Assembly: GCF_002009425.1 (NCBI RefSeq)
Contig: NZ_CP019936.1
Location: 729,001 to 793,000 of the forward strand
From: Thiosocius teredinicola
GTDB lineage: Bacteria; Pseudomonadota; Gammaproteobacteria; Chromatiales; Chromatiaceae
DNA: 64,000 nucleotides
Reading direction: 5' to 3'
Below are positions 998-10,638 of this stretch, piece after piece; the stretch's first letter is position 1, and the number at the start of each line of letters is the position of its first letter. Below the pieces are notes generated by a model that did not search any database, had not been told where the DNA came from, and saw only the letters and a program-made list of their open reading frames with translations. Both the position numbers and the translations under genes were made by a program.

Positions 998-3112
998 TTG
1001 ACAACCAACGGCGAAGTCATCGATGTATTGCTAGTCGAAGACAACCCGCAAGAAGCGGACATCGTCCGCCTTTATCTCGCCAAACGGCATGCGCATATCT
1101 ACCGCCTCACCCATGTCCGCAGCATCGATCAGGCATTGACGGCGATCGCCGGCGAGAGGTCGCCCGGTGTGATTCTCCTCGATCTTCATCTTCCGGGTGC
1201 GCGCGGGCTTGAGGGGTTCGAGCGATTGGCCGCCGAGGTTCGCGGCGTGCCGATCATCATTCTGACGAACTGCGATGAAGAACGCATCGCCGCGCAAGCG
1301 GTGCGCGGTGGTGCACAAGACTACCTGGTGAAGCGCGAAGTCAATGCCGCGTTGCTGCATCGCGCCATTGTCTACGCCATTGAGCGGCAGCGCGCCGAGC
1401 GCGATCTCATCAAGGTCAAAGAGCGCTATGCCTTGGCGGTCGAGGGAGCCAACGATTGCATCTGGGATTGGGATGCGGTCAGTGGGCAGGCCTACTTTTC
1501 GCCACGCTGGAACGAGCTCGTCGGCCTCGAGAATGAGACGACGGTCGGCGATCTCGACGACTGGTTCAAACGCGTCCACCCAAAAGATATCGCTGAACTC
1601 AAAGGTTTGATGATCCCGCCGGTCAGCGGCGACCGCAATCACTTCGAACACGAGCACCGCTTGCGGCATGAGAATGGCGACTACATCTGGGTCTATGCGC
1701 GCGGTGTGGTATTGACCGACGGCGGGGATTCGGCGGTGCGTATGGCCGGTTCCATCAGCAGTATCACCAAGCGCAAGCAGACCGAGCGGCAGCTGATGCA
1801 CCGTGCGCTGCACGATGCGCTGACGGGGCTGCCCAACCGCGTGTTGTTCATCGACCGCCTGATGCAGGCGCTGCGCCGCTACAAGCGCAACCCTGCGTTG
1901 CAGTTTGCGGTGCTGTATTTCGACCTCGATGGCTTCAAGATCGTCAATGACAGCCTCGGCCATTCGGCGGGCGACAGTCTCCTGGTGTCGATAGCCCGTC
2001 GTCTGAAGAGCGTTATCAGGCCGGGCGACACGGTGGCACGTATGGGCGGCGACGAGTTTGCCGTGCTGGTGGCCGATATTGAAGACGAGCAGGACATTGC
2101 CCAGGTTTCCGAGCGGATTCACCATCTGTTCGAGCGTGAGTTTTCGGTCGCCGGTCGCGGTATGTATTCGAGCGCGAGCATCGGTATTGCCGTGATAACC
2201 GAACAATACAATTCGCCGGAAGAACTGCTGCGCGACGCCGATCTCGCGATGTACCGGGCAAAACGCTCCGACACCGAAGGCACCGTGATCTTCGACCAGA
2301 CCATGCACCAGGCTGCCGTATCCCGCCTCAATCTCGAGACCGATCTGCGGCGGGCCTTGGCGCAGGGTGAATTCGCCGTTTTCTACCAGCCGATCGTTAC
2401 CCTTGCCGAGCGCCGAATCGTGGCGTTCGAAGCCCTGCTGCGCTGGCGGCACCCCACCAAGGGTGTGCTCTCACCGTCGAGTTTTCTCGCCGTTGTCGAA
2501 GACAGCGGCATGCTGTCGGCGCTGAGCTGGTGGGTGCTTGAGGAGGCCTGCCGTCAGGCGCATTCCTGGCGCAACCTATTTCCCGATGGTGAGACGCTGG
2601 GGGTCAGTGTGAACGTATCGGCCAATATGTTCCGCGAGGTTCAGTCCGTACAGCGGGTTAAAGACATCGTGCGGCAGTCGGGTATCCGGCCCAAAGACCT
2701 CTCGCTGGAGATCACCGAGCGCGATTGCATGGATCATGGTGATGCGATCAAGGTGGCACTGCGCTCGCTGCGCGAACACGGCATCAAACTGCACATGGAT
2801 GATTTCGGTACCGGCTATTCATCGCTGTCGTATCTGCAGCGTTGTACCTATGATTCGTTGAAGATCGATAGGTCGTTCGTGCAGACGATACACAGCGAAA
2901 CGCACAGCGTATCGGTGGTGAAGACGATCGTCGGGCTCGGTCGCATGTTGAACATGAATGTGGTCGCCGAAGGCGTCGAATCACAGGATCAGCTCGATAC
3001 CCTGCTGTCGCTCGATTGCCCGGAGGCGCAAGGGTACTGGTTTTCCGAGCCGGTACCGCCCACCCAGATCGGGCGCCTCATCCGCGAGGCCTGGTGTCTG
3101 CCGCAGCTATGA
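998..3112 (+). CDS. Response regulator with REC-PAS-GGDEF-EAL domains
   Basis: This 704-residue protein links a phosphorelay to cyclic di-GMP turnover. Domains in order: receiver (about 8-125; acidic residues E14/D15, phospho-acceptor D62, switch K112), a PAS_3-type fold (about 140-262), GGDEF (about 268-430) with an intact MGGDEF motif near 350, and EAL (about 445-695) with FEALLRW near 477, DDFGTG near 602, LKIDRSF and VVAEGVES. Both catalytic signatures look intact, so it could make or degrade c-di-GMP; which activity dominates cannot be read from sequence. No membrane segment is visible, so it is cytoplasmic. The start is TTG, directly after the TAG of the upstream histidine kinase, which is the obvious partner for D62. 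Confidence 0.92.
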   Translation: MTTNGEVIDVLLVEDNPQEADIVRLYLAKRHAHIYRLTHVRSIDQALTAIAGERSPGVILLDLHLPGARGLEGFERLAAEVRGVPIIILTNCDEERIAAQAVRGGAQDYLVKREVNAALLHRAIVYAIERQRAERDLIKVKERYALAVEGANDCIWDWDAVSGQAYFSPRWNELVGLENETTVGDLDDWFKRVHPKDIAELKGLMIPPVSGDRNHFEHEHRLRHENGDYIWVYARGVVLTDGGDSAVRMAGSISSITKRKQTERQLMHRALHDALTGLPNRVLFIDRLMQALRRYKRNPALQFAVLYFDLDGFKIVNDSLGHSAGDSLLVSIARRLKSVIRPGDTVARMGGDEFAVLVADIEDEQDIAQVSERIHHLFEREFSVAGRGMYSSASIGIAVITEQYNSPEELLRDADLAMYRAKRSDTEGTVIFDQTMHQAAVSRLNLETDLRRALAQGEFAVFYQPIVTLAERRIVAFEALLRWRHPTKGVLSPSSFLAVVEDSGMLSALSWWVLEEACRQAHSWRNLFPDGETLGVSVNVSANMFREVQSVQRVKDIVRQSGIRPKDLSLEITERDCMDHGDAIKVALRSLREHGIKLHMDDFGTGYSSLSYLQRCTYDSLKIDRSFVQTIHSETHSVSVVKTIVGLGRMLNMNVVAEGVESQDQLDTLLSLDCPEAQGYWFSEPVPPTQIGRLIREAWCLPQL

Positions 3113-3217
3113 CGCTGATCGCGTACGGCGCGAATCGCGGACGCGCACTGCCGGTTTACTTAAACAATGTTGGGACAGGCCCACGGCGAATGTGCCAGAA
3201 TCCATAAATCACATCTG

Positions 3218-3401: not shown

Positions 3402-3983
3402 ATGGCCGACGACCAGAAAGAGCCGAGAACAAGCAACGACGACGTCATTCTGCAGCAGCAGTACCTGAGGGCGCTGAGTTCCTTCGAAGGTATCGTTCTG
3501 AGCCAGATCGACGTCAAGAACAAACTCGGCGACCGGCTCAACTACAGCATCCGGGCCGGCCTGATCATTCTGTTTCTTATTGCATTTTCCATCCTGATCC
3601 TGCTGCTTACGTTGAGCTCGCAGATCACGCGTATCTCAGACGTCGTCGGAGAAATGAATAACCATTTCACTGCGGTATCCGACCGTATGGACGACATTAC
3701 CAAGGACTTGATCTCGATGGAGCAGCAGGTCGCCAACCTGAAAGAGATACAGGAAAACACCGCAGTGCTCGAAGTCGAATTCAAGGCGATTGCGGTCAGT
3801 ACCGGCAATATTGAGGACAGCGTATTGACCATCGCCCAGGCGATGGGCGGCACCCGGCTCAACGTCGAGAACATCGCCTTCACGATGAATGCGATGAATC
3901 ACGAAGTGCAGGTTATGAGTGCCGAGATGCACCGCATGGCGAAACCGGCCCGAACACTGAACAAGATGTTCCCGTTCCCATGA
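3402..3983 (+). CDS. Single-pass membrane coiled-coil protein, twin 1
   Basis: I do not recognise a named family. The 193-residue protein has a ~50-residue polar N-terminus, one strong membrane helix (about 52-73, IILFLIAFSILILLLTL), then ~110 residues rich in Met, Asn, Glu, Asp and Ile that read as a long alpha-helical coiled coil, and a short C-terminus ending MFPFP. With the N-terminus inside, the coiled coil would be periplasmic. There is no cleavable signal, enzyme motif or metal site. The next gene has the same architecture, and minCDE follow on the same strand. A role at the envelope or division site is a guess from context. No clear ribosome site precedes the ATG, so the start is less certain than the frame. 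Confidence 0.72.
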   Translation: MADDQKEPRTSNDDVILQQQYLRALSSFEGIVLSQIDVKNKLGDRLNYSIRAGLIILFLIAFSILILLLTLSSQITRISDVVGEMNNHFTAVSDRMDDITKDLISMEQQVANLKEIQENTAVLEVEFKAIAVSTGNIEDSVLTIAQAMGGTRLNVENIAFTMNAMNHEVQVMSAEMHRMAKPARTLNKMFPFP

Positions 3984-4038
3984 CAGCCGTGCGCCGACCA
4001 GAAGGACGGCGCAAACACCTTACAGCGAGGATGCGAGA

Positions 4039-4581
4039 ATGAGTGTCGATCCACGTGCGCCGATCGTTCAGGTCATGGCCCGTCTTGGGCGCGAGACGCA
4101 GTTGCATCTTGACGAGCGTCATCGTCACTTCAAGATCACCGACAAGGTGATCCTCGTCATTTCGATCCTGCTGGCCGTGTTGGCCTTCGTCAACGTGTAC
4201 TACGTAACGGTGCTGTATCAGGACATGAACGGCATCGTCAGCAACATGGATTCGATGTACAAAAACCTGTCGCGCGTCGACAAGGACATGGAACTGATCG
4301 CCGACCGTGTGAATCGCTTCGACGATCACATTCAGCATATGTCGCCGATCACGACGAACATGGCGCAGATCACCTCTATCATGCCGCGCCTGCGTGAGAG
4401 TATGCAGGCGATGGATGCCGAAATGGCGGCCATCGACGCCGATATGCTGCACGTGACCTCGGCAATGGCAGGCATCGGCGAGCAGATGAATCACATCACC
4501 GGGGGCATGGCCGTGATGCGCCAGAATGTCCATCAGATCTCCGGCCCGATGGGTGCGATCAATCCGATTCTGCCGAATTGA
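4039..4581 (+). CDS. Single-pass membrane coiled-coil protein, twin 2
   Basis: This 180-residue protein has the layout of its upstream neighbour: a polar N-terminus, one membrane helix (about 36-58, VILVISILLAVLAFVNVYYV), and a Met-rich helical segment (about 62-165) with repeated patterns such as MAQITSIMPRL, MDAEMAAIDADM and MAGIGEQM. The C-terminus ends in INPILPN, echoing the proline-containing end of twin 1. The pair look like diverged tandem duplicates. A GAGG ribosome site lies 8 nt before the ATG. It is 55 nt downstream of twin 1 and 142 nt upstream of minC on the same strand. Function is unknown; the regularly spaced methionines and absence of charged catalytic clusters suggest a scaffold or oligomerising protein. 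Confidence 0.75.
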   Translation: MSVDPRAPIVQVMARLGRETQLHLDERHRHFKITDKVILVISILLAVLAFVNVYYVTVLYQDMNGIVSNMDSMYKNLSRVDKDMELIADRVNRFDDHIQHMSPITTNMAQITSIMPRLRESMQAMDAEMAAIDADMLHVTSAMAGIGEQMNHITGGMAVMRQNVHQISGPMGAINPILPN

Positions 4582-4723
4582 CGCCGAAATCCGGCGATGC
4601 ACCGGATGGCCCGATTCGAGCGGGATAATTTGTGAAGCAAACGCTACCTGGCAGGGCGATTTCGGATAGACTCTGAGCCCGAAATCAACAAACAAGCCGA
4701 TTGCCGGAGAGTAGTGACCAGGC

Positions 4724-5440
4724 ATGTCCGAGGTGTCTCCACGTACCGATCAAGCGCCCGCTGCTTTCGATATGAAAGCGGGCCAATACACGCTGCCGAC
4801 CCTGGTATTGCGTGATCTTGACGTGAACGCGCTCGACGCGTTTCTCGCCCGGCAAGTCGCCCGCTTGCCGTCGTTTTTTGAGCAGGCGCCGGTCGCAATC
4901 GACATCTCTGCCCTGCCGGACACCGACCTGCTCACCGATTTCCCGATGATCGTCGGTATGTTGCGTGGACACGGCATGATCCCGGTGGGTATCCGCGGTG
5001 CGTCGCCGGAACAGCGTGAACAGGCCGTTGCGTTGGAAATGGCTATCATCCCGGCGGGTCGCAAAGCGACAGTCAATCGCCCGCAGCCGGTGCGTAGCGC
5101 CGCAAAGCCGGCCGTGCCGACCTTGATCGTCGACAAGCCGGTGCGCTCGGGCCAGCGAATCTTCGCCGACAATGGCGACCTGGTGCTGCTGGCCGGCGTC
5201 AGTTCGGGGGCGGAGGTGATGGCGGAGGGCCATATCCATGCCTATGGGCCGCTGCGCGGCAGGGCGTTGGCGGGCGTGTCCGGCAATACCGAAGCGCGCA
5301 TATTCTGTCGCAGCCTCGGTGCCGATCTGGTTTCGATCGCCGGTCGTTATCGGGTCAGCGAGAACCTTGAGAATCGTTATCTAGGACGGGCCGTGCAGAT
5401 TTCCCTTGTGGAAGATGCGCTGAAATTCGAGCTGCTGTGA
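4724..5440 (+). CDS. minC: Septum site-determining protein MinC
   Basis: MinC inhibits FtsZ polymerisation and is brought to the membrane by MinD so that division is blocked near the poles. The 238-residue length is normal. The N-terminal FtsZ-inhibiting domain spans about 1-105. A variable linker follows, and then the C-terminal beta-helix dimerisation/MinD-binding domain (about 125-238) with the typical stretch GHIHAYGPLRGRALAG. The gene heads a minC-minD-minE run on the plus strand, with 57 nt to minD. Two membrane coiled-coil genes lie upstream on the same strand and could share its promoter, although the 142-nt gap leaves room for a separate one. Confidence 0.96.
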   Translation: MSEVSPRTDQAPAAFDMKAGQYTLPTLVLRDLDVNALDAFLARQVARLPSFFEQAPVAIDISALPDTDLLTDFPMIVGMLRGHGMIPVGIRGASPEQREQAVALEMAIIPAGRKATVNRPQPVRSAAKPAVPTLIVDKPVRSGQRIFADNGDLVLLAGVSSGAEVMAEGHIHAYGPLRGRALAGVSGNTEARIFCRSLGADLVSIAGRYRVSENLENRYLGRAVQISLVEDALKFELL

Positions 5441-5497
5441 AGCGTGGCCCGTCCTCACACCATCTAGCGTGGACCAGGCGTCCATAGGAGCGATCAG

Positions 5498-6307
5498 TTG
5501 CCTCGAATCATCGTCGTAACCTCCGGTAAGGGAGGAGTGGGCAAGACCACGACCAGTGCGGCATTCGCAATGGGTCTGGCCGAGCGCGGTTTCAAGACCG
5601 TGGTCATCGATTTCGACGTAGGTCTGCGCAACCTGGATCTGATCATGGGTTGCGAGCGCCGCGTGGTTTACGACTTCGTTAATGTGATTCAGGGCGACGC
5701 CAACGTCGGGCAGGCGCTGATCAAAGACAAGCGCAATCCCAACCTGTTCATCCTGCCCGCATCGCAGACGCGCGACAAAGAGGCGTTGTCGATAGAGGGC
5801 GTGGGGAAAGTGCTCGAGGACTTGAGCCGCGAGTTCGATTACATCGTGTGCGATTCGCCGGCCGGAATCGAGAAGGGCGCGACGCTGGCGATGTACTACG
5901 CCGATGACGCGATCGTGGTCACCAACCCGGAAGTGTCGTCGGTGCGCGACTCGGACCGCATGATCGGCATCCTGTCGAGCAAGTCGCGGCGCGCCGAGCA
6001 GAATCTCGAGGGGATACGCGAGTTCCTGCTGGTTACCCGCTATTCGCCGGAGCGCGTTCAGCGCGGTGAAATGCTGTCGCTGGAAGATGTCCAGGAGATC
6101 CTGTCGCTCGACCTGATCGGTGTGATCCCGGAATCGATGTCGGTGCTGAACGCATCCAACGCGGGCGTCCCTGTGATCATGGATCGTGAGAGCAGTGCGG
6201 GCCAGGCTTATGGCGATATGGTGTCACGGTACCTGGGTGACGACCTGCCGCACCGTTTCCTGAATGTCGAGAAAAAAGGCCTTCTGGGCCGCTTGTTCGG
6301 GGGCTGA
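5498..6307 (+). CDS. minD: Septum site-determining ATPase MinD
   Basis: This ParA/MinD-family ATPase dimerises on the membrane with ATP, recruits MinC, and is released by MinE, giving pole-to-pole oscillation. The deviant Walker A motif (GKGGVGKTT) is at the N-terminus, followed by switch regions [10 protein letters not shown] and [10 protein letters not shown]. The C-terminal amphipathic membrane-targeting helix ([11 protein letters not shown]) is present. Its 269 residues match the family. The start is TTG, supported by an AGGAG ribosome site ending 7 nt upstream and by alignment of the N-terminus with other MinD proteins. The stop TGA lies one base before the minE ATG, implying tight coupling of the two. 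Confidence 0.97.
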
Positions 6308-6308
6308 T

Positions 6309-6557
6309 ATGGCGTTACTCGATTTCTTTCGACAGCGGAAGGCCAGCGGTTCGGCGGCGATCGCCAAAGAGCGGCTGCAGATCCTGGTCGCGCACGACCG
6401 CCGCGGTGGCGGCCCGTCGTATCTGCCCCAGTTGCAGAAAGATTTGCTCAAGGTGATCCGCAAGTATGTTGCGGTCGACAACGATGCCGTCTCGGTCAAT
6501 GTGGAACACGATCAGGGTCACGAGATACTCGAACTGAACATCGTGTTGCCTGACTGA
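6309..6557 (+). CDS. minE: Cell division topological specificity factor MinE
   Basis: MinE stimulates the MinD ATPase and confines MinC/MinD to the poles. The 82-residue protein has the N-terminal membrane-binding segment ([11 protein letters not shown]), the MinD-contact region ([14 protein letters not shown]) and the C-terminal topological-specificity domain. I start it at the ATG one base after the minD stop rather than at an upstream in-frame ATG inside minD, because this gives the canonical MinE N-terminus. A strong intrinsic terminator follows about 40 nt after the stop, so minE ends the operon. Confidence 0.97.
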
Positions 6558-6645: not shown

Positions 6646-7551
6646 TCAGCTCGCTTTGCGGCCCCAGCGACGGCGGGTCGCAAGTGCGCCGATGCCGAGC
6701 AGTGCCAGGGTGCCGGGAACCGGTACACCCGGATCGCCACCGCCTTCGCTCGGCTCACAGTGTGCCGGGTCGCAGCTGACCGTCAGGCCGCTGATGCGGA
6801 AGGCGTCGTTGTTGTGTTTCTTATTCGCGCCGGCGATCAAAACGAAGTAACGCGATGCTACCGGGCTGTTGATCGACACCGTGCGGTCGCTGGAGTCGCC
6901 ATAGTTCTGGGTGATCAGGGTCCAGTCGCCATTACCCGCCCAGGTGTCGTAGTCCGGAATCTGGCCAGGACCGGCGAGGTTGTTGATCTCAAGTTCGGCG
7001 CCGCTGTAGGCCCACAGCTCGAAATCGGTGTCGGCGCCATTGTAGGCCTTTAGCAGGCTGATCTCTTCAACCGATACCACGCACGATTCGAAGTCGAACA
7101 GTACGGCGTCACGCAGGTACTGCGACTGCCCGCTGTTCTTGATGTTGTCGATCTTGCTGCCCCAGTGGGTGCTTTCGCCCGGCGAGTGAACGCCGATGCC
7201 GTAGCGAGGGACGGTTCCATCGGTCGTGTACGAGGTCGCACCGTCACCGATTTGGCCGCTGTAACCGAGCGTGTTGCCGTTGTTGTCCTTGTGGCGGCCG
7301 ACAGTGAAGCCCTGCAACACCAAGCTATAAGAACCACCGGCGGTCGAGGTGCCGGTATAGGTCAGGGGATCGCCATTGACGTTGCTGCCGCTGGTGAAAT
7401 CCCAGGTCACGACGCATTCGGGGGTGGGGTCGCCACCGCCGTTGTTGCCTCCGCCACAGTGGTTACCACCACCTTTGTGGGAGAACGTGGCCAAAGCAGT
7501 GCTGGAAGCGCCGGCCAGAATGGCGAGCGCTGCGAATTTTAGAATATTCAT
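6646..7551 (-). CDS. Exported protein with C-terminal PEP-CTERM sorting signal
   Basis: This is a 301-residue secreted protein. It has an N-terminal signal peptide (about 1-22, ending STALA), a Gly/His/Asn-rich low-complexity stretch (about 25-42), a large beta-type domain with several cysteines, and a C-terminal tripartite sorting signal at 276-301: VPVPG, a hydrophobic helix, then RRRWGRK. This is the PEP-CTERM pattern recognised by exosortase, which would process the protein for export to the surface or matrix. No catalytic motif is visible in the body. The next gene on the same strand is PrsT, a standard companion of the exosortase system. The exosortase itself is not in this window. The Gly/His-rich segment might bind metal, which is speculation. 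Confidence 0.85.
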   Translation of the reverse strand: MNILKFAALAILAGASSTALATFSHKGGGNHCGGGNNGGGDPTPECVVTWDFTSGSNVNGDPLTYTGTSTAGGSYSLVLQGFTVGRHKDNNGNTLGYSGQIGDGATSYTTDGTVPRYGIGVHSPGESTHWGSKIDNIKNSGQSQYLRDAVLFDFESCVVSVEEISLLKAYNGADTDFELWAYSGAELEINNLAGPGQIPDYDTWAGNGDWTLITQNYGDSSDRTVSINSPVASRYFVLIAGANKKHNNDAFRISGLTVSCDPAHCEPSEGGGDPGVPVPGTLALLGIGALATRRRWGRKAS

Positions 7552-7797: not shown

Positions 7798-10638
7798 TCA
7801 CTTCGTCGCTTGCAGTGCGTTCAGTCGTGCCTCTGCCTCGGCGCGCTCGGGAAAATCATCCGACATCCGCAAGGCGTTCTCGTATTCGCGCCTGGCAGCC
7901 GACGCGTTGCCGTATTCCTGCAACGCCACGGCGAGGTGGTAGCGAATGGTGGGGGAGCGGCCATTGCGTGCCAACGCGTCCCGCAGGTGGGCAAGGCCAC
8001 GTTCGAGTTCGCCCAGTTGGGTCAGGGTCCAGCCCAGTGTGTCGAGCACGGCCGGGTTGTCGGGCGCCAGTTCATAGGCCTTGGTGGCTGCTTTCAAGGC
8101 CCGTTCGGTGTCGTAGGTCGACAAGGCGTCCGCCAGGCTGCTCCAGGCGATCGGGTCATCCGGAGTCAAATCGACGAGTTCCTCGTGCAGCGCAAGAGCT
8201 GCCTTCTGGTCTCCTCGCAACATCTGGTGCCGCGCGAGCACGCGAACCACTGCGGCTACGCCGGGATGCTGTGCGTTCCAATCGCTCAGCACCTTGAGGG
8301 CGTCCGATTCTTTGCCGGAGCGGATCAAGCCGCGATGCTGGCTGATGACCAATTGCGGCGAGTCCTGAATCTCACGCGCTTTCTTATAGTAGCCAACGGC
8401 TTCCGCCGGCTTCTGCTGCGCCAGACGAATGTCGCCGAGCAGCGCCATGGCATGGGCGTTCTTCGCGTCGCGCTGCAGCACGGCCTGTGCTTCAGCTTCC
8501 GCGTCGGCCAGTTTTCTCTGGCGGAAATACACGGTGGCCAGCTCGTTGCGTGCGAAGTGTGCATCGGGGTCGACCGCCAAGACTTTCGACAGTACCCAGG
8601 CAGCGGCATCGGCATCGTCGGCCACGATGAACAGGCGCGCGGTATGCATCAGGCGCTCGACGTCTTCGCCTGCGAAACGGGCGACGTCGCCCAGGGTGAT
8701 CGTCGCCCCGGTCTTGTCGTCTTCGGCGAGCTGGACCCGGGCAAGGGTCTCGGTGACCAGGTAATCGTTGGGCACGGCGCGATTGAGTGCCGCTGCCTTG
8801 GTCGCGGCCGATGCGGTGTCGCCTACGGCGAGGTAGGTATTGATCAACTCGATGTTGCCGAGGACGTTGTTGGGTTCGAGTTCGTGCAGCTTTTCCAGGT
8901 GTTGGATCGCCAGCCTGGCGTTGTTCTGCTTGAGTGCGAAGCGCGCAGCCTCGAGCAGCGCGCGCGTGTCGTTGGGGTCGGTAGCGAGCAGCTCGGCGAA
9001 CGCCGCACCGGCCTGTTGCGTGCGCCCCTCGGCGACATCGAGCTTGATCAGGTTGTAGCGTGCCGGGCGAAACGTCGGGTCTTTCGCCAGAATGCTCTCG
9101 AGGATCGAGCGGCCTTGCGCGCTGTCGCCGCGAGCGACCGCAACCAGCGCTTGCAGGTTGCGCGCCGTCAGGTTGTCGGGCGATTCCTTCACCAGCCGGT
9201 CGGCGACACCGCCGGCTTCATTGAAGCGGTTCTCGCTGTAGTACAGCATGCCGAGCAACAGCGATGAATCCGCTTTGGCCGCGCCGCTGGTCTGTTCGAC
9301 CAACGATTCGAGCGTCTGCAGAGCTTGATCACGCTGTCCGCTGTAGAACTGCGTCATGCCCAGGCGTCGCACCAGTGCCGGTCCGCCGTTGTAGTTTTCC
9401 AGGGCGTCGCGGTAATAGCGCTCGGCGGCGACTTCATCGCCCGATTGCATATGCGCATCGCCCAGCAATGCCAACGCCTCGGCGTCGGCCTGATTGTTGG
9501 CGGAAAGGCGCAGCAAGACGCGTTGTGCATCGTTGGGTTTGCCCATCGCCAGCAGGATGCGCCCGAGCAATTTGCGACCTTGGGCGTCGCCGGAGTGCCC
9601 GTCGACATAGGCCGACAAGAATTGGTACGCGGTTTCGAGCTGCCCACCCTCGAACGCGATGGTGCCGTACAGCAACAGGTCTGCGCCTCGATTCGACACA
9701 TCCGCCGACGAGTAGGCGCTGATCAGGCTGGATGCCTTGGCGCGCGCGGCGTCGGCGTCTGCTGTCCGGTTGAGCGCCTTGAGTGCCTCCGAGCGCAGAT
9801 ACGGAATCGTGGCGACGGCCGGAAACTTCCGTTCAAGCGGTTCCAGCAACGCCACTGCGCGCGCCGCGTCGCCCGATTCGAGGATTGCCGTTGCTTCGCC
9901 GAGCGCGGCCTGTTGGTGATTCGGGTCGAGCGAGTGGGCGCGGTTGTAGGCCTTGCTCGCTTCATCGAACTGGCCCAGCGCGTGTGTAGCGGAGCCTTTG
10001 ACGAACCATGCTTCCGCATTGTCCGGTGCGACCGACAGAATATCGTCGACCAGGCGCGAGGTTTCGGCAAACTTCTTTTGTTTGAGCGGAATCTTGGCCA
10101 GGCCCAGCTTGGCGCCGACATGTGTCGGATCGATCTGCAGTGCTTCCTGGAACGCAATGGTGGCCCCTGCGGGATCGTCGGTTTCAAGCCGCGCGATGCC
10201 TAGCTGCTCCCACAGGTCCGGTTGCTGGCTGCGTGGAAAACGGGTGGGAATGATCGACTCGAGATTGAGTTCGTACTTGCCCAGGGCGTTACGCGCCTTT
10301 GCCAGCGGCCCTGCAACCAGCAGTGGGTCGGCGCCCAGTTTTTGCGCCTGCACCAGTTCCTCTTCGGCCGCGACCGGATCGTCCAGCGTCAGGTGCACGC
10401 GTCCCAGCAGGATCTTTGCGGACAATTGCCCGGGATCGCGTTGCAAGGCGTTTTTCAACTGAATCAAAGCGCCTTTGGGGTCGTCGTTGTTGAAGCGCGC
10501 AACGGCGTCTTCGTAATAGCGGGTGGCCAGGGGGTCGGCGGCCTGCGCGGCGCCAATGGCGGTCATCGCCGTGGCCAACAGCAGTGCGCGCCAACGGCGC
10601 CGGCTTGAACCTGTTTTTGAGTCGTTATTACTGTTCAT
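7798..10638 (-). CDS. prsT: PEP-CTERM system TPR-repeat protein PrsT
   Basis: This 946-residue exported protein is made almost wholly of tetratricopeptide repeats (typical repeats read as A-x-A-L-G-D and P-x-N-x-x-A). Length and repeat layout match PrsT of exosortase/PEP-CTERM systems, thought to support export or assembly of surface polysaccharide and sorted proteins. The N-terminal signal ends AAQA before ADPL near residue 33. Unlike most of the family, which are lipoproteins, there is no cysteine at the cleavage site, so this copy should be periplasmic and soluble or held by partners. The PEP-CTERM substrate gene follows it on the same strand after about 250 nt. No other prs/eps genes are in the window. 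Confidence 0.87.
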   Translation of the reverse strand: MNSNNDSKTGSSRRRWRALLLATAMTAIGAAQAADPLATRYYEDAVARFNNDDPKGALIQLKNALQRDPGQLSAKILLGRVHLTLDDPVAAEEELVQAQKLGADPLLVAGPLAKARNALGKYELNLESIIPTRFPRSQQPDLWEQLGIARLETDDPAGATIAFQEALQIDPTHVGAKLGLAKIPLKQKKFAETSRLVDDILSVAPDNAEAWFVKGSATHALGQFDEASKAYNRAHSLDPNHQQAALGEATAILESGDAARAVALLEPLERKFPAVATIPYLRSEALKALNRTADADAARAKASSLISAYSSADVSNRGADLLLYGTIAFEGGQLETAYQFLSAYVDGHSGDAQGRKLLGRILLAMGKPNDAQRVLLRLSANNQADAEALALLGDAHMQSGDEVAAERYYRDALENYNGGPALVRRLGMTQFYSGQRDQALQTLESLVEQTSGAAKADSSLLLGMLYYSENRFNEAGGVADRLVKESPDNLTARNLQALVAVARGDSAQGRSILESILAKDPTFRPARYNLIKLDVAEGRTQQAGAAFAELLATDPNDTRALLEAARFALKQNNARLAIQHLEKLHELEPNNVLGNIELINTYLAVGDTASAATKAAALNRAVPNDYLVTETLARVQLAEDDKTGATITLGDVARFAGEDVERLMHTARLFIVADDADAAAWVLSKVLAVDPDAHFARNELATVYFRQRKLADAEAEAQAVLQRDAKNAHAMALLGDIRLAQQKPAEAVGYYKKAREIQDSPQLVISQHRGLIRSGKESDALKVLSDWNAQHPGVAAVVRVLARHQMLRGDQKAALALHEELVDLTPDDPIAWSSLADALSTYDTERALKAATKAYELAPDNPAVLDTLGWTLTQLGELERGLAHLRDALARNGRSPTIRYHLAVALQEYGNASAARREYENALRMSDDFPERAEAEARLNALQATK

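Follow-up and report, generated by a model that had tools for sequence, protein, structure and literature searches.

A conserved tandem pair of predicted periplasmic coiled-coil proteins upstream of minCDE in Thiosocius teredinicola, with relatives in RND exporter operons

The tandem genes before minC and their architecture

Within a 64,000-nt stretch of the Thiosocius teredinicola genome (hereafter the window), two small genes of the same design, designated P1 and P2, are located in tandem before minC on the same strand (Table 1), and the open reading frames, membrane helices, coils and proline-containing tips described in an earlier note on this DNA were all recovered. Because orthologues with 41–76% identity were found in 38 loci of the genome collection, always both and with the order kept, P1 and P2 are genuine genes at this place and not chance open reading frames; gene starts were assigned by a simple rule.

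Table 1. Features of the window around the P1–P2 pair.
Feature	Position	Strand	Remarks
Response regulator with GGDEF-EAL	998..3112	+	upstream of P1; retained before minC in a pair-less congener
Promoter-like element GAATGTGCCAGAAT	3186..3202	+	after the GGDEF-EAL gene, upstream of P1; from alignment only
P1	3402..3983	+	193 aa; short cytoplasmic head, single TM, periplasmic heptad coil, tip NKMFPFP (predicted); 'first' clade
P1 TM helix	3555..3614	+	residues 52–71; K/R richer before than after, predicting N-in, coil out
P1 coil and tip	3615..3980	+	122 residues, about 18 nm if helical throughout
P2	4039..4581	+	180 aa; design as P1; tip MGAINPILPN; 'second' clade
P2 cytoplasmic motif ETQLHLDER	4093..4119	+	from orthologue alignment
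P2 TM helix	4147..4206	+	residues 37–56; predicted N-in, coil out
P2 coil and tip	4207..4578	+	124 residues
Promoter-like element TTGTGA ... GATAGACT	4630..4675	+	before minC; from alignment only
minCDE	4724..6557	+	minC 4724–5440, minD 5498–6307 (start codon apparently TTG), minE 6309–6557; adjoins the pair only in the window's genus
Secreted protein with PEP-CTERM-like end	6646..7551	-	downstream of minE; from sequence reading
Large TPR-repeat protein	7798..10638	-	downstream of minE

Each protein has one strong hydrophobic segment, which follows a head of about 36–51 aa and precedes a coil of 122–124 residues with heptad periodicity (peak at 3.48 residues). The methionine richness reported in the earlier note was borne out as well, with Met making up 11% and 14% of the post-TM part across the P1 and P2 orthologues, respectively, while the copies in the window contain 5.7% (P1) and 10% (P2) versus 2–3% in minC, minD and the GGDEF-EAL protein. 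Topology was called from charge bias, which predicts a cytoplasmic head and a periplasmic coil in 38 of 39 P1, 38 of 39 P2 and 69 of 71 wider family members. The rod length is near constant over the family, i.e. 122.5 (sd 2.1) and 122.8 (sd 4.5) residues for the two genes, and AlphaFold single-chain models rendered P1 and P2 each as one long unbroken straight helix (pTM about 0.3). The first eight residues of the P2 head motif, ETQLHLDE, are invariant in all 39 P2 orthologues and are not retained in the divergent relatives that were read.

A sigma-70 consensus scan of the region yielded no promoter, and the promoter-like elements in Table 1 are defined by cross-species conservation alone. By alignment, the GAATGTGCCAGAAT element before P1 is shared between the window and six related loci, and the TTGTGA ... 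GATAGACT element is conserved in congeners including one without P1–P2, the latter probably being the minC promoter. With a conserved promoter-like element before each of P1 and minC, the possibility that the two genes are hitchhikers with their own promoter, raised as an alternative in the earlier note, gains support.

Scans of Pfam and NCBIfam returned no model above cut-off for P1 or P2, in keeping with the initial impression that no known family fits. The best Pfam match of P1 was DUF948 (PF06103), which likewise has an N-terminal TM followed by a coil; its scores of 23.6 bits for P1 and 18.6 bits for P2 fall below the gathering cut-off of 37.2, and it matched 10 of 41 family members at E 1e-3. 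DUF1664 (PF07889) scored 18.7 bits for P2 and 15.9 bits for P1 against a gathering cut-off of 34.6 and matched 22 of 41 members at the same E-value, consistent with a generic coiled-coil signal. Neither library showed in P1 or P2 the cytoplasmic signalling domain of methyl-accepting chemotaxis receptors, and the coil is predicted to lie outside. The PDB profile matches, comprising de novo coiled coils, chemoreceptor coils and viral coils, were dismissed as noise, and the literature on Ca. Thiosymbion and on minC-linked or Met-rich coiled-coil proteins contained nothing on the pair. Thus, the P1/P2 family is covered by none of the libraries searched.

An anciently duplicated pair and its relation to minCDE

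P1 lies immediately upstream of P2 in all 38 P2-encoding loci of a species-level genome collection, with a gap of -1 to 71 nt (mostly 6–71 nt) and a single case of 278 nt; in 9 further distinct loci from whole genomes P1 again directly precedes P2, giving about 47 in total. Against the window's genome, the P2 profile scored 56.5 bits for P1 and 29 bits for a third family member, versus 12 bits for the best other match, and hhalign aligned the P1 and P2 profiles with 97.8% probability over 124 columns without gap. In a tree of 64 proteins from 32 pairs, nearly all pairs divided into a 'first' and a 'second' clade, and a 71-member tree covering many families and another class displayed a single deep first/second branch with 97/97 support, the order being reversed in one lineage only (L081, L090). 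Based on the P2-profile scores, the gap-free profile alignment and the tree, the likeness between P1 and P2 reflects homology beyond shared coiled-coil character, in agreement with the duplication and subsequent divergence proposed at the outset. The distance matrices of P1 and P2 correlated at r = 0.93, although common descent alone could give such a correlation. Divergent tandem pairs are spread through the order and also turned up in other Gammaproteobacteria and at least one further class, so that the family spans more than one class of Pseudomonadota. Judged from these comparisons, P1/P2 is an ancient duplication that has been maintained as a heteropair, also outside Gammaproteobacteria. 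A mobile plasmid origin was rejected, as a plasmid collection gave no match to P2.

Two other settings of divergent pairs were observed. In eight loci (L073, L074, L076, L078, L082, L086, L088 and L091), a dCache protein is encoded directly 5′ of the pair, apparently in one operon, and another pair type follows an RsbW-like HATPase gene (L075, L077, L079, L081 and L090).

Co-occurrence was surveyed in 195 genomes of the order, 65 of which encode a full-length P2, with pair-bearing counts taken from the matches listed. Among these matches, MinC was present in 28 of the 65 pair-bearing genomes and absent from 37, the MinE distribution broadly agreed with that of MinC, and several of the pair-bearing genomes without MinC are single contigs with 98–100% completeness; so the pair is not restricted to Min-bearing genomes. 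Same-strand adjacency to minC, found in all 8 pair-bearing genomes of the window's genus, is the point in favour of a Min or division-site membrane scaffold, the role suggested in the earlier note, but those are the only 8 of 65 in which minC adjoins the pair, so that linkage to minCDE does not extend across genera and conservation next to minC, on which that suggestion had been made to depend, fails beyond the genus. Elsewhere the pair neighbours ABC-F, UvrD, RecQ, GpsA, PqiA, Rho, LonB and other genes. Conversely, a congener (G123; locus L121, 4671–4844) retains the order kinase–GGDEF-EAL–minCDE with the pair missing, and no P1/P2 family member was found in its genome (94% complete). The same genome also lacks the RND exporter X2 and the third paralogue described below. 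The Min proteins are cytoplasmic, whereas the P1/P2 coil is predicted to face the periplasm; moreover, minC is preceded by its own conserved promoter-like element. By distribution, neighbourhood, predicted topology and the pair-less congener, the scaffold was rejected and is considered very improbable, and the place of the pair before minC is probably a genus-level neighbourhood without functional meaning.

Relatives in RND exporter operons

Of 13 pair loci fetched from another class, 10 are arranged as MFP-RND-first-second with genes abutting or closely spaced, and a TolC-like gene lies upstream in most of them. Gammaproteobacterial examples include one MFP-RND-pair locus (L127) and one pair-MFP-RND locus (L169), and a single family relative precedes MFP-RND in three more (L084, L085 and L170). 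Relatives of P1/P2 are thus members of RND operons in these 10 other-class loci plus L127 and L169, whereas in the fetched orthologous loci of the window's own subfamily no RND gene flanks the pair, i.e. the linkage was not found in its own lineage. The RNDs linked to a pair or a single relative form one clade (X1) with about 60–77% identity, versus about 25% with the remaining RNDs of the window's genome. That genome encodes both an X1 member, 61% identical to a pair-linked RND, and a member of the sister clade X2; the pair at 0.732 Mb is unlinked to X2 at 1.329 Mb and X1 at 4.436 Mb.

The X2 of the window's genome is linked to the third family member and not to P1/P2. X2 regions are generally organized as MFP-X2-(proline-rich proteins)-ParA-like, and a single family member follows on the same strand in 14 of 19 complete regions. 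In the window's genome (L156, 5034–13065; C1 about 1329033–1337064) and in L175–L194, the order comprises MFP, X2, one to three proline-rich proteins, a ParA/MinD-like ATPase and a single P1/P2 relative, and the X2 proteins of these loci carry a long Lys/Ala/Pro-rich tail in an ORF of about 1110–1490 aa.

Across the 195 genomes, X2 and any family member were both present in 175 and both absent in 14, agreeing in 189 (Fisher 5e-16, kinship ignored), a correlation owed mainly to the third paralogue, which is physically linked to X2. When P1/P2 were considered by themselves, the association with X2 was weak (64/65 versus 114/130, p = 0.013, kinship ignored). X1 was missing in about 17 of the 65 pair-bearing genomes, and P1/P2 as a fixed partner of X1 was rejected because presence over the 195 genomes does not track. 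Given the weak X2 association and the non-tracking X1, the RND link of the window's pair is therefore drawn from its relatives. Since those relatives sit in export-pump operons, P1/P2 are likelier to be envelope or transport parts than division-site scaffolds.

Possible function and comparison with known systems

We tentatively propose, at somewhat less than even confidence, that P1 and P2 are two subunits of one inner-membrane hetero-coiled-coil rod accessory to RND-type exporters. The two proteins would assemble in register as a parallel rod of about 18 nm that may extend to the peptidoglycan or outer membrane zone, where the conserved proline-containing tip would dock on a periplasmic or outer-membrane partner. 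Envelope-spanning RND-type exporters of one clade (X1/X2) could then use the rod as an accessory that stabilizes or lengthens their periplasmic path; in the lineage of the window, its action would be in trans, on an RND pump encoded at another locus. A bolder version, rather unlikely in our estimate, holds that ancient, obligately heteromeric rods are the fourth and fifth components of a distinct RND clade, doing the job of the MmpL5 tube by separate proteins, and that they were freed from the pump operon in Chromatiales and landed before minC in this genus.

RND genes are not the sole recurrent neighbours: the dCache proteins encoded immediately before eight divergent pairs also make a less specific role conceivable, as a general envelope spacer or tether, which we rank second and regard as doubtful. 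Such a hetero-coiled-coil rod would have no fixed partner and would space the inner membrane from, or link it to, the peptidoglycan or outer membrane, RND operons being one place where it was kept. It would accommodate both the almost constant rod length and the solitary position of the pair beside unrelated genes in the window's lineage (ABC-F, UvrD, RecQ, GpsA, Rho and LonB), but recurrent linkage to one RND clade in differing gene orders is not expected from it, and the Pfam scan showed no peptidoglycan-binding domain in P1 or P2.

Alternatively, an envelope complex might be positioned through a ParA/MinD-family ATPase that the cytoplasmic heads recruit or stimulate, with the coil serving only as an anchor. 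At most X2 loci, that of the window's genome among them, and also in another class, a ParA/MinD-like gene does lie before the single relative, the P2 head holds its invariant motif, and the pair adjoins minCDE in the window's genus; this reading is nonetheless improbable, for outside the genus no ParA/MinD gene stands beside the pair, apart from one at about 4.6 kb on the other strand in a single locus, and the motif is absent from the divergent relatives read. There is a still slimmer chance that the pair relays signals together with periplasmic sensor proteins, as could be read from the eight dCache-preceded divergent loci, one of them with an above-cut-off guanylate cyclase domain, and from the kinase and GGDEF-EAL regulator preceding the pair in the window's genus; P1 and P2 themselves contain no signalling domain in Pfam or NCBIfam, and the dCache link is limited to a few genera. 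Least probable of all is a Met-rich periplasmic buffer for metals or oxidants: the 11–14% Met of the post-TM part would suit it, but Met seems to replace other hydrophobics in the heptad pattern, which packing explains, and P1 of the window has just 5.7%.

With the accessory rod as the preferred reading, what appeared as a curiosity beside minC in one genus becomes a defined and testable two-subunit family with a recurrent genetic partner. Should the RND link hold true, rod-like accessory subunits would join the picture of tripartite efflux in Gram-negative bacteria. The position before minCDE is misleading here, which bears on the annotation of pair-carrying Chromatiales and sulfur symbionts.

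Among known systems, the locus of the third paralogue, rather than that of P1/P2, recalls the SgpD locus of Allochromatium vinosum, in which the gene of a proline-rich periplasmic protein adjoins a hydrophobic/amphiphilic exporter (PMC10386293). With proline-rich proteins following the RND X2 in the window's genome, this is a resemblance of setting, and SgpD is reported almost only from Chromatiaceae. The pair itself is closest in its relatives' gene order to tripartite RND efflux systems of the AcrAB-TolC type, as MFP, RND and TolC-like genes directly precede it there. Canonical systems of this type need no P1/P2-like pair, and the pair-linked RND falls far short of the cut-offs of the curated AcrB, MdtC and CusA models. 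MmpL5, the RND exporter of MmpS5L5, has a periplasmic coiled-coil tube of about 18 nm that reaches the peptidoglycan layer (PMC12501195). The predicted length of the P1/P2 coil would be comparable, a similarity of kind only, with the PDB sequence match at coiled-coil noise level; and whereas the MmpL5 coil is an antiparallel hairpin inside the RND protein, P1 and P2 are two separate, predictedly bitopic proteins.
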